Source of the DNA: Chloroflexota bacterium
Lineage (GTDB): Bacteria; Chloroflexota; Anaerolineae; J036; Brachytrichaceae
Direction of reading: 5' to 3'
Length of the DNA stretch: 64,000 bases
Assembly: GCA_023382055.1 (NCBI GenBank)
Contig: JAMCQN010000013.1
Span: 1-64,000, forward strand
Positions 16,662 through 23,774 of the stretch are shown here, piece by piece. Each line of letters opens with the position of its first letter. The stretch's first letter is position 1. Position numbers and translations under genes: made by a program. The notes beneath the pieces are model-generated. The model was not told the DNA's origin. It made no database searches and saw only the letters and a list, made by a program, of their open reading frames with translations.

Positions 16662-18512
16662 CTAACCCGCCAGTCTCTCGGCCTCTGTGACCAACCGCTC
16701 CAGCTCATCGAATCCCACCTGCCAGAAAGCGGGGGCGCTGATATCGATGCCGATGGCAGCCATTTGATCCTTGGGCGACATGCCGCCGCCTGACTCAAGC
16801 AACGCCCGGTATTGCGGCGCAAACGCTGCCCCTTCGCGGCGGTACTTGCCGTACAGCGCCAGCACGAGGAGTTCGCCGAAGGAATAGGCATAGCAGTAAA
16901 AAGGCGTATTGATAAAGTGCGGGATATACGACCAGCCCCACTCGTAACCCTGCGTCAGGTTCACCGAGTCGCCATAATACGGGGCATTCGCTGCGAGCCA
17001 GATGCTGCCGATCTGTTCCGCGTTCAATCTGCCTTTGGCGCGCGCGGCGTAGGCGCCTTCCTCAAAGCGCGTCAGCACCGTCTGGCGGAAGACCGTGGCA
17101 AAGCTATCCTCCAGCTTGCCGCAGATGAGCGCCAGGCGTTTGCGCGGGTCGGTCAGCCGCGCCAGCAGGTCGTCGAATACCAGCATTTCCGAGAACACGC
17201 TGGCCGTCTCTGCCACGGGCAGGCTCATATAGAAGTTGAGCAGGGTCTGTTTGCCGCTCAGGTAGAAGTGGATGCCGTGACCCAGTTCGTGCGCAACGGT
17301 CATGACGTCGCGCATGTCGTCGTTATAGCTGCATAAAACGAACGGGTGCACGGACGGCGCGATCCCGGCGCAGAACGCCCCGCCCCGTTTGCCGGAACGC
17401 GGGTCTGCGTCGATCCAGTTTTCAGTGAAGAAACGCCCGGCGATCCGTGCGAACTCCGGTGAAAATCGGTTCAGCGCCTGCAGGATGACTTCCTGCGACT
17501 GCGTGTAACTATAGGTTTCCTTGACTTCGAACAGCGGTGCATACTGATCGAACAGTTCGAGTTTCGGCAGATTAAGCAGCCGGGCCTTCATTTTGAAGTA
17601 GCGATGGGCGAGCGTGTAGTTGCGCTCCACCGCCGCCATCATGGCGTGAACGGACGCGGCATCGATCTCGTTTGACAGGTGGCGCTGCGCCATCGGGTCG
17701 GGATAATGTCGCAGGCGATTGGAAACCAGGTGATCCTAGAAGCGCGTGTCGTAGATATAAGACAACACCTGGCTGTTTTGCTGCAACGTCGTATAGAGCG
17801 AATCGTAGGCCAGCTCGCGCAACGAGCGGTCCGGGTCGCGCAACAGCGTCAGCACCTGGCTCTGGTTCAATTCCTGCCTGGCGCCGTCACGCTCGACAGG
17901 ATAACGCAGCGCCGATGTGACCTCGGTAAACAGCTTCTGCCACGCACTAATCCCGGTCAGATTCTTGTCATTGATGATCTTCTCTTCCGCCTCGCTCAAG
18001 GTATAGGGCTTGAAGCGCCGTTCCGCCTGCAGATAATGGGCATACCCGGTCAGCGCAGGATCGCCCATGAGCCGCTCCGCGATGTAATCGGGAACCTCCA
18101 GCCATTCCAGTTCGAAGAACAGCAGCTTGTTGCGCAAAGCCGTCATGGCTTCCTCAACGCGCTGCGCCAACACGCGGTGCGCGTCTTTGGCCGTATCAGC
18201 CGCGTACAGCAGCGACGCATAGGCGCTGGTTTTGACCATCGACTCCTGTAGCAACTCGTACTCGCGCAATGCAGCCAGCAGGTGATCGGGCGTTGGGCCG
18301 CCGTCGACTTTCAGCGTGCCGCGATACCGGCGCTCGAAGTCATCCGCCTGCGCTGCGGCATCCTGCAGCGCGGCTGTGATGCGCGGGTCATCCGGTCCAC
18401 TGTAGAAGACGCTCAGATCCCAGGCCACGCCGGCTGCGCTTTTCGATGGTGCAGCGCCTGCCTCAACGCTGTCGGGATAATCCAGAAGAGGGTGTTGCTC
18501 CATGTCCGCCAT
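16662..18512 (-). pseudogene. pepF: Oligoendopeptidase F (M3 family) interrupted by one in-frame TAG
   Basis: Zinc oligopeptidase of the M3B family, cytoplasmic. The frame reads 616 codons, the usual length of about 600. Codon 259 (17736-17738) is TAG, splitting the gene into 258-aa and C-terminal parts in the same frame. The translation on either side is continuous: YIYDTRF, stop, DHLVSNRLRHYPDP, then MAQRHLSNEIDAA. No frameshift is needed. The zinc site HELGHGIHF (H408, E409, H412) and the downstream Glu lie in the C-terminal part, so the short N-terminal product would be inactive. A CAG-to-TAG change (Gln) is the simplest origin. A second start at the ATG at 17693 has no clear ribosome binding site. 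It could be a recent null mutation, a sequencing error or a suppressed codon. Confidence 0.88.
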
Positions 18513-18543: not shown

Positions 18544-19917
18544 TTAGAGTTGCGCGGCGCGCACAGCCAGCCCGCTGGCTACGCTGGTGAACAGGTCAGA
18601 CTCAACAACTTTCTCGCGGCCAAACATCTCCGCCAGCATATCGATGAAGTATGGAATTGACGAGGAACCGCCGGTGCGAATCACAAAGTCGATCTGGTCA
18701 ACCCGCAATCCGGCGCTTTCGAGCGTCTGCAGTGTCGTGTCGCGGATCGTTCGGCCGTCGCGGGCGATGAAACTCTCGAACTGCCGGCGCGTAATCGGTT
18801 GCCAGATCGAGATGGCTTCTTCGTCGAAGCCGATTACATCGAACCGTTGTGTCGATAGCGCCACCTTGCATTGCTCGACCCTTTCGTACAGATCAAAGGC
18901 ATAACCCTTGAATACGAAATCCTCAAGCGCGTAAATCCGGATGGGCTGGCTGCAATCCGCCTGCACCTGGCGCAGAAAACCGAGCGTCGGCGCATTGCAC
19001 AGGGCGACCACATCCTGCCAGTCGCCCAGCGCGTCCAGAAGATGAGCGGGCAACGCCAGCTTCTGCGGCCCCCACAATACGCCTTCGCCGAGCCAGGGCA
19101 GCATGGCGCGCCGGAAGATGGACTGGTCGAAATGGTCGCCGGCAATGCCGACCCCGCCGGTCGCCAGCACGCGCTGTTCGCCGCCGCTTTCCACGCGCAG
19201 CACCGCGATGTCCAGTGTGCCGCCGCCGAAGTCAAACACCAGGGCATGGCTTCCGGCTGCCATGCGGCGCTGCGCGCCGAACGCCAGCCCGGCTGCAATC
19301 GGTTCCTGCTCAAATGCCACCCGCGTGAAACCCGCCAGTTCAGCGGCATGCTGCAGGCGCGTCTGTGCGCGGCAATTGTCGGCTTCTACCCTGGCGCCCG
19401 CAAAATTGACGGGCCGGCCAAATACCGCTTCTTGCGCAACCCGACCGGTCAGGTCTTCGACGCGCGCTCGCACGCGCTTCAGGAATTCCGCGATAAGCTC
19501 CTCGAGCGTGTATTCGCGGTCGAACAGCTTGGTGCCGGCATACGCTGTAGCCAGCGGTCCTTTCAACGAGTGCAGCAGCCGGCCCGGCGCATCGGCGTCA
19601 ACATCGGCGAAGACCTCAACAGACATGGCGCCGCCCGGAATATTGTATCCCTTGACCACCGCGTCGCCAATCTCGATGTCGATCACGCCGACCCACGCCC
19701 TGGCAAAGCGGGGCAGACGACCCACATTCTGGGAGCGATGCAGGCGCACGGCCGCGCCGCCCGTATGGATCATGCCGTCGCGCTCGACATACAGCAGCGT
19801 GCGCAAGGTGTTCTGGCCGGAACCATCAGGGTCCAGCGGTAGTACTGTTGGCGCGCCATCGGGACCGATGATGGCGGCGACGGTATTCGTCGTGCCGAAG
19901 TCAATGCCCAGTTGCAT
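18544..19917 (-). CDS. Hsp70-family ATPase (YegD/DnaK-like, actin fold only)
   Basis: 457 aa with the Hsp70 nucleotide-binding fold and little beyond it. PHOSPHATE 1 is LGIDFGTTNTVAAI, PHOSPHATE 2 is VFDFGGGTLDIAVL, and ADENOSINE is VIRTGGSSSIPYF. The substrate-binding beta-sandwich and lid of DnaK are absent, as in YegD-type proteins, so it is not the housekeeping DnaK. The start at 19917 has GGAG 8-9 nt upstream. It lies downstream of the GyrA-like propeller gene and 31 bp before pepF on the same strand. Its partner is unknown. Confidence 0.88.
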   Translation of the reverse strand: MQLGIDFGTTNTVAAIIGPDGAPTVLPLDPDGSGQNTLRTLLYVERDGMIHTGGAAVRLHRSQNVGRLPRFARAWVGVIDIEIGDAVVKGYNIPGGAMSVEVFADVDADAPGRLLHSLKGPLATAYAGTKLFDREYTLEELIAEFLKRVRARVEDLTGRVAQEAVFGRPVNFAGARVEADNCRAQTRLQHAAELAGFTRVAFEQEPIAAGLAFGAQRRMAAGSHALVFDFGGGTLDIAVLRVESGGEQRVLATGGVGIAGDHFDQSIFRRAMLPWLGEGVLWGPQKLALPAHLLDALGDWQDVVALCNAPTLGFLRQVQADCSQPIRIYALEDFVFKGYAFDLYERVEQCKVALSTQRFDVIGFDEEAISIWQPITRRQFESFIARDGRTIRDTTLQTLESAGLRVDQIDFVIRTGGSSSIPYFIDMLAEMFGREKVVESDLFTSVASGLAVRAAQL

Positions 19918-20020: not shown

Positions 20021-21166
20021 TCACAACAGGGTCGCGGCGATGATGCGCTGCGAGGAAACTTTGAGCGGCTGGATGTCAGATGGCTTTGATGCGATGGGCA
20101 GCCCTTTCATGCTGACGATATGCAACTCGCCCTGGCTGGATAACAGGGCGACGAGTTCATTTTTGCGCGCCGTGATGCCATAGCACGCCAGCCCGACGAA
20201 ACGCCGTGTCAACGGCCCTGGTTTGGCGCCGGGTTTTTTATGCGGCGCCAGGCCTTCGGTTGCGAGAGCAAAGAGCGACCCATCTGAGCCGATAAACCAG
20301 ACCGCGGCTGGGGCATTCTGCCTGCTCAGAACGGCTGCCGCGGCCACATCGTCGTCCTGATCGAGTGTGACACCGGAGCAACCGATGGACGGGATCATCC
20401 CGACCGGGAAGCGCGTCCAGCGTCCGTTGCGCGTCAGGAGGAGTATGTCGGCATCCGTATCACACGGCCCGATCCACACCGGGCTATCGCCCGTGCCGGG
20501 CAGTGTCATCGACTGGCCGGAGAGCAGGATCGTCTCGGCATGCGACCACGACATGACCCTCACCCAGCCTTGCCGGGTAACCAGCAGCACAGCGCGCGGC
20601 GGATGCAGTTCGTCCAGCGCACAAACTGCTTCCACGCGTTCCGCGCGCGCCAGACCCAGACCGCTGATCGAGCGGGCGTCGCGCCAGTCCAGCTTCTCGC
20701 TGTAACGCAGGCTTAAGCCGTTCACGATCGCGAAACGAACCTTTGACGTCACCGCCAGCAGCGAGTCAAACCACGTGCCGCTGGACAGATAAAGCGGTTT
20801 GAGCGCATCGATTGGCTCATCCGGAGCGGTCAGCACCGTCAGTGTCTGTTCGAGAGGCGCCGGAGCAGCCAGATGCACGCCGTGGCCGCTGAAAGCCAGC
20901 ATGGAGATGACGTCACGATTCAATCCCTTGCGTTCGGCCAGGGATCGCAGATCGCGCAGGTTGGTCTTAAGTCGCTGTACCTGCTCGAGAGAGGTCTGCT
21001 GACCGCCCGTGCGTTTCAGCAGGGCGGTCTCGGCGCGCAACTCATCAGCCTGGCGCTGCAACGTCTGCGCGCGCTCCGCCAGCGCTTCAATGATCTGCTG
21101 CGCTGTGTCAGAGTCATTGCGCGCCTCGGCAGTAAGCCAGGTCAGGTCACGTTCGATTAGAGACAT
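20021..21166 (-). CDS. Stand-alone GyrA C-terminal-like beta-propeller protein with coiled coil
   Basis: 381 aa, no gyrase catalytic domain. Residues 5-75 are helical and coiled-coil-like (ALAERAQTLQRQADELRAE). From about residue 90 there are roughly five to six repeats resembling GyrA/ParC C-terminal blades. The clearest is DILLLTRNGRWTRFPVGMI followed by GCSGVTLDQDDDVAAAAVL. Weaker copies are VLLVTRQGWVRVMSW, VWFIGSDGSLFALATEGL and LVALLSSQGELHIVSMKGL. GyrA blades of this type wrap DNA. The canonical GyrA-box is not seen, so DNA wrapping is uncertain. It starts 25 bp after the nrdJ stop and probably shares that transcript. Function unknown. Confidence 0.75.
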   Translation of the reverse strand: MSLIERDLTWLTAEARNDSDTAQQIIEALAERAQTLQRQADELRAETALLKRTGGQQTSLEQVQRLKTNLRDLRSLAERKGLNRDVISMLAFSGHGVHLAAPAPLEQTLTVLTAPDEPIDALKPLYLSSGTWFDSLLAVTSKVRFAIVNGLSLRYSEKLDWRDARSISGLGLARAERVEAVCALDELHPPRAVLLVTRQGWVRVMSWSHAETILLSGQSMTLPGTGDSPVWIGPCDTDADILLLTRNGRWTRFPVGMIPSIGCSGVTLDQDDDVAAAAVLSRQNAPAAVWFIGSDGSLFALATEGLAPHKKPGAKPGPLTRRFVGLACYGITARKNELVALLSSQGELHIVSMKGLPIASKPSDIQPLKVSSQRIIAATLL

Positions 21167-21191: not shown

Positions 21192-23774
21192 TCAGCACTC
21201 AGAGAACCCGCACGACAGGCACTTCCTGCAACCTTCGGAACGAACGTATGTGCCCATGCCACACGACGGGCATAAGTCGGCGCCGGATAGCTTCCCGTCA
21301 GGGCTGAGGTGTCCGTTGCCATTCACTCCCGGCGTACTGTGTATGTGCTCTGATGGCTGTGTCGGGATGCTGCTGATAATGGGCAACGGCAACTGCTCCG
21401 CATCTTCCTTCTTAAAGTACATCTCGCGCAGAGTGACTGCCAGCGCGTCCGGCAGCGACAGGATGCGGTTCGGTCCCATGCCAACCGAGTGCGAGCCGCC
21501 GATGCCTTCCAGTTGCGAGATGACCAGTTCCATACGCTCGCGCCGGGTCAGCGGCGATGCGATGCGCAGCATTAGTGAAACCAGGCGGCCGATAGCCTCT
21601 GCGTCGGCCTGCAGGTCGCTGCCGGCCTTGCCAATCGTGATGAACACCTCGAATGGGTCGCCGTTTTCATCATGGTTGCTGGTGGTATGCACCGTGCCGA
21701 GCGGCGTATGCTTGCTGATTGTCGAGCCGCTGCGCTGAGCCGGCAATGGCTCCACGGCGTGCTCGAAGCGGAATATCTTCTGGTTGCCGTTCTTGCTGAC
21801 TTTTGCGGCGCCTGCGGTCTTGTCCTCATCCTTGCTCGCGCTTTCGTCTTTGAGCGTCAACACCTGCTCGTCGCGCGACCCGTCGCGGTAGACGGTGCCG
21901 CTCTTGCAGCCGAGTTCATACATCAACTCATAGAGCGAACGCACGTCGTCGACCGTGTAGCTATTGGGCAGGTTGCACGTCTTGCTGATGCTCGAATCGA
22001 CCCAGCGCTGGATATCGGCTTGCACGCGCACGTGATCCTCCGGCGCCAGACTCATGGCAGTCACAAAGTAGGACGGCAATTCCTCACCCGGATGGTCAGC
22101 TTTCCATTCGTCAACGACACTGACGTTCTGTTCGTGCAGCCCCAGGCGCGACTTGCGGAAATAGGTCCACGAGAAGAATGGCTCGATCCCGGTCGATGTA
22201 TCGACCATGGTGCCGATGGTGCCGTTGGGCGCCTGTGTCAGCAGCGTGACATTGCGCATGCCTTTCTTGGCCACGGCCTGGCGTATCGGCTCCGGCATCG
22301 CCTGCATGTAACCGCTCTGCAGGAATTTTTCGGCATCGAACGCCGGGAAAGAGCCGCGTTCCTCGGCCAGGCTGATGGATGCTTCATAGGCGTTGACGGC
22401 GATGAACTCATATAGTTTGTCCAGGAACCGGGATGATTCCTGGCTGCCGTAACGGATACCCAGCCGGATCATCAGTTCCGCCACACCCATGGTATTCAGG
22501 CCGACGCGCCGTTCTTTGAGCTGTTGCTCTTTATTTTCGTCATAGAAATAGGGCGTCGCATCGATCACGTTGTCCAGGAAACGCACGGCATACCGCACAG
22601 TCTCGCCCAGATCGTCCCAGTCGACGTCGCCGTTCCTGTAGAACCGCGCCAGGTTCACTGCGCCCAGGTTGCACACGCCCCAGGCCGGCAGGCCCTGCTC
22701 GCCGCACGGGTTCGTGCAGATAATCGGGGCGTAATACCACGAATTGCTCATGCGGTTATAGCGGTCGTTAAAGAAGACGCCGGGTTCGGCGCTGGCCCAG
22801 GCGCTCTCAATGATGCTGTTCCATATCTCGCGCGCCTTGACGGTCTTATACCGCACTACCGGGCGCCCGCTATCGATCCACTTGCGCAGGTCGCCGTCCC
22901 ATATCGTGTTGTAGTCCGGATAGGCGGTGTCCGGGAAGACCAGATCCCAGTCGCCGTCGACTTTCACCGCTTCCAGCAAAGCGTCTGAGACTGCCACGCT
23001 GATATTGGCATTGGTGATCTTGCCCGCAACACGCTTGCTGTTGATGAACGAAAGGATATCGGGATGCCAATCGTTGAGGATCAGCATCAAGGCGCCGCGG
23101 CGGCTGCCGCCCTGCTCGATCAACCCGGTCACAAAACTGTACAGGCCGCCCCAGGAGACGGCGCCGCTCGAACGGCCGTTCACGCCGCGCACATAGCCGT
23201 GCTGCGGCCGCAATGAAGACAGGTTGATGCCCACGCCGCCGCCGCGCGACATGATCTCGGTCATTTGCGACAAGGTGGTGATGATCCCGGCGCGCGAATC
23301 GGCCGGGCTGGGAATCACGTAGCAGTTGTAATACGTGAGTTGCTGATCGCTGCCTGCGGCGGTCAGGATACGGCCCGCCGGGACAAACTTCCAGCCTTCC
23401 ATGATCGAGCGGAAATTGCGCTCCCAGGCGGCGCGCAGTTCGGGCGTCTTCTCAGCCGAGGCGATCCCGCGGGCGACGCGATCCATCATCTGCGACGGGT
23501 GAGTCTCGATCGGTTTGTCGACTTGTTCCAGGGCAACGGTCATCATCGTTTCGTCGCGCAACTCAACCGTGACAGTGTTGGATTCCAGCGACGCCACGAC
23601 GCCGATCTCGCGCTGGTTTGTGCGCGAGTCAACCAGCACTACAACCGTGTCGCCGGCGGCCAGGGTCTTGCGCGTCATATCCTTCATCGCATAGCGATCG
23701 AGAAAGATCTTCTCCCCCAATTCGTTCAAACGATTAGGATCTGTTTGTTGGTTTGTTTCTATCGCACCCAGCAT
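21192..23774 (-). CDS. nrdJ: Adenosylcobalamin-dependent (class II) ribonucleoside-diphosphate reductase
   Basis: Reduces ribonucleotides to deoxyribonucleotides using a radical from vitamin B12 coenzyme, so it needs no oxygen. 860 aa. The active-site pattern N355-x-C357-x-E359 is in CTNPCGEQ, and the redox cysteines are C151 (YYNCYVIP) and C368 (GVCNLGAVN). The C-terminal tail carries a zinc-ribbon-like CPSCGMGTYV and CRKCLSCGFSEC, which also supplies cysteines for re-reduction. Residues 35-85 form a small beta-rich domain. The ATG at 23774 is preceded by GAGGAA. It lies 47 bp after nrdR and is probably co-regulated by it. Confidence 0.96.
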   Translation of the reverse strand: MLGAIETNQQTDPNRLNELGEKIFLDRYAMKDMTRKTLAAGDTVVVLVDSRTNQREIGVVASLESNTVTVELRDETMMTVALEQVDKPIETHPSQMMDRVARGIASAEKTPELRAAWERNFRSIMEGWKFVPAGRILTAAGSDQQLTYYNCYVIPSPADSRAGIITTLSQMTEIMSRGGGVGINLSSLRPQHGYVRGVNGRSSGAVSWGGLYSFVTGLIEQGGSRRGALMLILNDWHPDILSFINSKRVAGKITNANISVAVSDALLEAVKVDGDWDLVFPDTAYPDYNTIWDGDLRKWIDSGRPVVRYKTVKAREIWNSIIESAWASAEPGVFFNDRYNRMSNSWYYAPIICTNPCGEQGLPAWGVCNLGAVNLARFYRNGDVDWDDLGETVRYAVRFLDNVIDATPYFYDENKEQQLKERRVGLNTMGVAELMIRLGIRYGSQESSRFLDKLYEFIAVNAYEASISLAEERGSFPAFDAEKFLQSGYMQAMPEPIRQAVAKKGMRNVTLLTQAPNGTIGTMVDTSTGIEPFFSWTYFRKSRLGLHEQNVSVVDEWKADHPGEELPSYFVTAMSLAPEDHVRVQADIQRWVDSSISKTCNLPNSYTVDDVRSLYELMYELGCKSGTVYRDGSRDEQVLTLKDESASKDEDKTAGAAKVSKNGNQKIFRFEHAVEPLPAQRSGSTISKHTPLGTVHTTSNHDENGDPFEVFITIGKAGSDLQADAEAIGRLVSLMLRIASPLTRRERMELVISQLEGIGGSHSVGMGPNRILSLPDALAVTLREMYFKKEDAEQLPLPIISSIPTQPSEHIHSTPGVNGNGHLSPDGKLSGADLCPSCGMGTYVRSEGCRKCLSCGFSEC

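Follow-up and report, generated by a model that had tools for sequence, protein, structure and literature searches.

The window analysed here is a stretch of 64,000 nucleotides in which a run of minus-strand genes comprises, in order, ftsA, ftsZ, a small overlapping ORF, nrdR, nrdJ, the gene of a 381-aa propeller protein, an Hsp70-like gene and a split M3 peptidase gene (Table 1). The propeller ORF lies on the minus strand, not the plus strand, and is separated by 25 bp from nrdJ on its upstream side and by 103 bp from the Hsp70-like gene on its downstream side. It is a real gene, because homologues were found both in four congeners (63-76% identity) and in other genera (36-43% identity). The gene for oligoendopeptidase F (M3), downstream of the Hsp70 gene, contains an in-frame TAG; the frame is open on either side of this codon and the homologue at locus L027 is intact. 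The TAG is due to a nonsense mutation or to an error in the assembly.

Table 1. Genes and protein features at the propeller-Hsp70 locus (positions in the window).
Feature	Positions	Strand	Basis
nrdJ	21192..23774	-	
Stand-alone GyrA-CTD-like propeller protein P0001, 381 aa	20021..21166	-	gyrA profile, PDB match, AlphaFold model, Foldseek, VIA
P0001, N-terminal helices, residues 8-79, probable coiled coil	20930..21145	-	AlphaFold2 model and conservation
P0001, predicted six-bladed beta-pinwheel, residues 84-381, GyrA-CTD fold without GyrA box	20024..20917	-	AlphaFold2, Foldseek, VIA
P0001, most conserved blade, residues 226-277 (D227, D240, R246, G248, R252, F253, G262, D272)	20336..20491	-	homologue alignment
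Partner P0002, YegD-like Hsp70 ATPase domain, 457 aa, no substrate-binding domain	18544..19917	-	Pfam, NCBIfam, alignment
P0002, Hsp70 phosphate-2 motif DFGGGTLD, residues 229-236	19210..19233	-	invariant in alignment; aligns with DnaK DLGGGTFD
P0002, Hsp70 adenosine motif VIRTGGSSSIP, about residues 412-422	18652..18684	-	sequence and alignment
Oligoendopeptidase F (M3) gene	16662..18512	-	
In-frame TAG in the M3 gene	17736..17738	-	

The structure of the 381-aa protein was predicted with AlphaFold2 from an alignment of 10 homologous sequences. In the resulting model (mean pLDDT 86.2, pTM 0.77), N-terminal helices (residues 8-17, 19-52 and 60-79) are followed by six strand blades that span residues 85-380. 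The helical region shows the pattern D-x(2)-W...E...P..A...E.LA.R...L...E.LR.E, which is kept across homologues encoded, like the window protein, separately from the Hsp70 (hereafter, split), and D7, R32, L36, R44, L50 and L66 are invariant among 15 homologues. Comparison of the model with the PDB using Foldseek yielded 20 significant matches (E <= 0.001), all of them to GyrA/ParC C-terminal domains (CTDs) or subunits, with quoted E-values from 6e-15 to 3e-7. The best match in the VIA comparison was 1suu (Z 30.7, 273 residues, rmsd 2.3 A); GyrA/ParC matches ranged from Z 30.7 to 14.4, the next unrelated propeller scored Z 4.4, and every compared chain with Z above 5 was a GyrA/ParC CTD, which assigns the modelled fold to the GyrA/ParC beta-pinwheels.

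The relationship is also detectable in the sequence. The NCBIfam gyrA models cover residues 133-370 (NF004043, E 3e-10; TIGR01063, E 1e-8), and the solved GyrA CTD 3l6v was matched in a phmmer search (E 4.6e-8). Pfam PF03989 produced a match under its cut-off (E 0.046), and the assignment by sequence, for which a match to either a gyrA or a PF03989 profile counts, comes from the gyrA models. No topoisomerase (breakage-reunion) domain with its catalytic tyrosine was found in the 381 aa by Pfam or NCBIfam, and the protein does not qualify as a gyrase subunit A. Since the strong fold matches are confined to GyrA/ParC CTDs, the reading given in the original prediction, that of a GyrA-tail-like propeller with a coiled-coil start, five to six blades and no topoisomerase domain, is right as regards the fold, the helical start and the absent domain, the blades numbering six in the model, and the protein is a predicted GyrA-tail-like beta-pinwheel. 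The window genome encodes two other, full-length GyrA/ParC-type subunits (open frames of 925 and 852 aa), both of which score above the family cut-off and have C-terminal matches. The 381-aa protein is therefore not a detached piece of gyrase, which rules out the possibility that it is the missing or detached tail of the genome's own enzyme.

The product of the downstream gene matches the Hsp70 family (PF00012, E 8e-28). The best-scoring Hsp70 model is the YegD-type model PRK11678 of NCBIfam (E 5e-42), at 144 bits against a curated cut-off of 331, so that the protein is YegD-like without being assigned as a YegD equivalog. YegD is not known to have a substrate-binding domain (SBD). The phosphate and adenosine motifs of the Hsp70 nucleotide-binding domain (NBD) are both present, with the ATP-binding motifs intact, and K119, which is invariant among the split-pair Hsp70s in the alignment, may be the counterpart of the DnaK catalytic lysine, judging by alignment order. 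The protein stops at the NBD, before any interdomain linker or SBD, and no SBD follows the NBD within its 457 aa. The neighbours named in the original prediction, nrdJ at 25 bp before the propeller gene and an SBD-less YegD-like Hsp70 adjoining it, are thus both in place.

The Chloroflexota class of the window genome was searched with protein profiles (396 genomes, most of them draft assemblies) and the neighbourhoods of the matches were then read; the counts below come from sampling within one class and one phylum. Four congeners share the order nrdR-nrdJ-propeller-Hsp70. Within this genus, the nrdJ at the site is of two kinds, one of 860 aa in the window genome (G000) and G004, and another in G001-G003 that is about 1,220 aa long and carries PF08471 at its N-terminus (PF08471 was checked in G001 and G002). 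Two unlike class II ribonucleotide reductases hence occupy one site after nrdR in a single genus (the window nrdJ; L027:5536-9213; L029:3933-7628), a case of replacement in place.

Beyond the genus, neither nrdJ nor ftsZ was present in the stretches read in four genomes of the same family (G005, G007, G012 and G017) and one genome of another family (G029), where the propeller and Hsp70 genes alone remain of the window neighbourhood. The pair extends to families f9, f27, f45, f54 and f55. Altogether, of the 19 genomes with a split-type propeller gene, which belong to seven families, 18 have an Hsp70 gene downstream of it on the same strand, with measured gaps of -4 to 110 bp and, in G029, one unrelated gene between the two; the exception is G285, in which no trace of an Hsp70 was found in the 3.1 kb downstream of the propeller. 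One genome (G389, L065:1463-4185) carries a propeller gene followed by two tandem Hsp70-like genes, a local duplication. Phyla other than Chloroflexota were covered by a single motif scan of genome contigs (GTDB), which, with a sub-alignment as the query, recovered 7 matches, including two more pairs from Chloroflexota (L171 and L172); the titles of all 7 are Chloroflexi/Chloroflexota, Anaerolineae, Anaerolineales or Ardenticatenales. The scan of genome contigs with the window protein as the query returned no relatives.

The conserved partner of the propeller is the downstream YegD-like Hsp70, not nrdJ or the division genes. Of the nrdJ-propeller-Hsp70 neighbourhood that the original prediction suggested searching for, the propeller-Hsp70 part is widely conserved and the nrdJ part is confined to the genus. 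A functional link to nrdJ, nrdR or ftsZ was accordingly rejected, given the conservation within the genus only and the two reductase types at one site, and with it the proposed tie to dNTP synthesis and division.

A search of the class with the Hsp70 alignment revealed many Hsp70 genes whose open frames are close to 800 aa long. We read 16 fusions of 768-823 aa, in which the Hsp70 ATPase domain is N-terminal (residues about 1-445) and a gyrase-type propeller is C-terminal (about 480-797), at the place usually taken by the SBD. These fusions occur in other families than the split pairs. In L119 and L120, HSP70 and DNA_gyraseA_C (PF03989) both exceed the Pfam gathering cut-offs; residues 497-779 of L118 match the A3 propeller profile (E 1.6e-22), and the NCBIfam gyrA model matches L111 at residues 500-800 (E 1.2e-11) and L118 at residues 531-786 (E 1.1e-10). 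The AlphaFold model of L111 (pLDDT 83.9) contains an NBD that aligns with DnaK at Z 35-37, after which three- and four-stranded blade units continue up to the C-terminus. The top of the Foldseek list for this model consists of Hsp70 domains only, so that the identification of the fused propeller relies on sequence profiles and predicted secondary structure. The fused proteins are devoid of the long N-terminal helices of the split propeller, in place of which they have a linker containing short helices. The class also encodes a further group of Hsp70-like proteins, of about 606-631 aa (L126:5203-7026 and L127:6037-7869), that are extended at the C-terminus by about 160 aa; Pfam detected no domain in this extension.

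In a phylogenetic tree of 69 Hsp70 domains, the 16 fused Hsp70s (support 99) are sister to the split-associated ones (98), both lying within one clade (94). The sister clade consists of 25 solo Hsp70s, almost all of which come from elsewhere in the phylum; no adjacent propeller was found in their flanks (about 1.5 kb read per side for most). Within the propeller-associated clade, the Hsp70s without an adjacent propeller are L116 and L117, which are second copies in genomes with a pair, and L097/G280; L121 also appears alone, being cut by the contig end. Upstream of the propeller-less clade Hsp70 in G280 lies a 421-aa gene without a Pfam match (L115:8071-9336), perhaps a replacement partner. 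An Hsp70-propeller fusion in G118 (L128:4884-7190), the Hsp70 of which falls outside the main clade on a long branch, may have arisen independently. In the propeller tree, topoisomerase tails, solo tails, split propellers and fused propellers form four separate groups; the grouping of split with fused propellers is weakly supported (69), and that of split propellers with topoisomerase tails is not rejected (p-AU 0.49). Because the two domains are fused in one lineage and encoded by adjacent, co-oriented genes in another, within one ATPase clade, the Hsp70 and the propeller most likely work as one machine.

The GyrA box, Q(R/K)RGG(R/K)G, is required for chiral wrapping of DNA by gyrase (PMC9348778). 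This motif, expected of a gyrase subunit A, was found in 0 of the 19 split and 0 of the 16 fused propellers, that is, 0 of 35 Hsp70-linked propellers, and because of its absence, gyrase-like DNA wrapping by these proteins seems unlikely. Their net charge ranges from -9 to +7 and is near zero in most. At the alignment columns where at least 60% of topoisomerase tails have a basic residue, such a residue is present in 30% of the split and 36% of the fused propellers, against 79-82% of hydrophobic-core columns kept; acidic columns (41-44%) have decayed about as much as basic ones, and therefore the loss of basic columns supports the loss of a wrapping surface only moderately.

These features bear on two DNA-centred explanations. 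The first is an ATP-regulated DNA-binding machine, in which the box-less pinwheel would still bind or bend DNA, as ParC tails may, with the Hsp70 controlling the binding, and the whole would serve as a nucleoid or topology factor. The nearest folds are indeed the DNA-binding tails of gyrase and topo IV, and some ParC-like subunits of the same genomes also have no detectable box at the usual place; however, the absence of the box from all Hsp70-linked propellers, their low net charge and, as a moderate test, the decay of basic columns relative to the core make this explanation unlikely. Far less probable still is the function put forward in the original prediction, in which the protein wraps the nucleoid or modulates gyrase and is linked to dNTP synthesis and division. 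It would accord with the GyrA-like fold and with the location, in this genus, after nrdJ and near ftsZ and ftsA, but outside the genus the gene does not adjoin nrdJ and ftsZ, the nrdJ type varies among congeners, and the missing box, near-zero charge and sparse basic columns leave wrapping or gyrase modulation without support.

A family of solo GyrA-tail proteins (about 340-430 aa) is widespread in the same class (L011:1108-2253, L058:1477-2547, L061, L084 and others). Like the window propeller, these proteins are GyrA-CTD-like and have no topoisomerase domain; unlike it, they keep the box or a close variant, belong to a separate clade and have no Hsp70 gene beside them. The loose pattern QxRGGxG detects the box in 11 of 15 solo tails, most of which contain QRRGG-x-G and some QRRAGMG or QHRAGMG, and all three that were scanned exceed the Pfam cut-off. 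Compared with the window gene, the solo, box-keeping family is the better fit for the idea of a detached gyrase tail.

We propose that the 381-aa protein is probably a dedicated second subunit of a YegD-type Hsp70, the two forming a two-part machine in which a GyrA-derived pinwheel replaces the SBD. As the propeller is located where the SBD of an Hsp70 stands, the simplest model would be an ATP-gated recognition module. The propeller and Hsp70 products would bind each other, and the Hsp70 domain, as it binds and hydrolyses ATP, would open or close access to the pinwheel, which in turn would recognise a macromolecule, more likely a protein or a complex than wrapped DNA. Docking or dimerisation would be provided by the N-terminal helices in the split form and by the covalent linker in the fused form.

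The same long helices, combined with a beta domain and encoded by a dedicated gene adjoining an SBD-less Hsp70, could also be those of a co-chaperone or nucleotide-exchange factor, loosely GrpE-like, that acts on the Hsp70 ATPase cycle instead of replacing the SBD. This is improbable, considering that the fused propeller is C-terminal to the ATPase domain, at the place of the SBD, that the N-terminal helices are absent from the fusions, and that no similarity to GrpE was found with Pfam or NCBIfam. A role in anti-phage defence was also considered and discarded, as no PADLOC model matches the pair or the fusions. If the pinwheel does take the place of the SBD, the pairs and fusions could, more tentatively, represent an as yet undescribed class of Hsp70 machines with a pinwheel instead of a peptide-gripping domain, in which the nucleotide cycle drives the propeller on a new class of clients, such as a nucleoprotein complex or DNA bound without being wrapped.

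Few molecular machines have been studied as much as Hsp70, whose engine normally drives a single kind of output domain. The repeated association, in one lineage, of the same engine with a gyrase-derived propeller amounts to a natural swap experiment on the client-gripping half, and the gyrase tail, for its part, has been re-used outside topoisomerases after the loss of its signature motif; both claims are directly testable with recombinant fused and split proteins. Each half belongs to a known superfamily, and the combination, whether split or fused, seems not to have been described before: no description of an Hsp70 ATPase combined with a gyrase-type propeller was found in the open-licence literature. 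The nearest published parallel that we found, the GAP1-N2 GTPase conflict systems, contains SBD-less HSP70 components, and its description mentions neither gyrase nor GyrA (PMC7159879). These systems resemble the pair described here in that an Hsp70 domain without a peptide-binding domain is part of a multi-gene system, but differ in also holding GTPases and GrpE or DnaJ-fused proteins (PMC7159879). Compared with the GyrA/ParC CTD (the PF03989 beta-pinwheel), the 381-aa protein shares the predicted six-bladed fold and the gyrA profile homology, whereas it has neither a topoisomerase domain nor a GyrA box, is near-neutral and possesses N-terminal helices of its own, and propellers of its type are paired with or fused to an Hsp70 ATPase domain. 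The partner, in turn, has the whole ATPase domain of DnaK-type proteins and YegD (PRK11678), with conserved nucleotide motifs, and resembles YegD in the absence of the SBD; in contrast to both, the Hsp70s of this clade have a gyrase-type propeller, either as a partner or as a C-terminal fusion.
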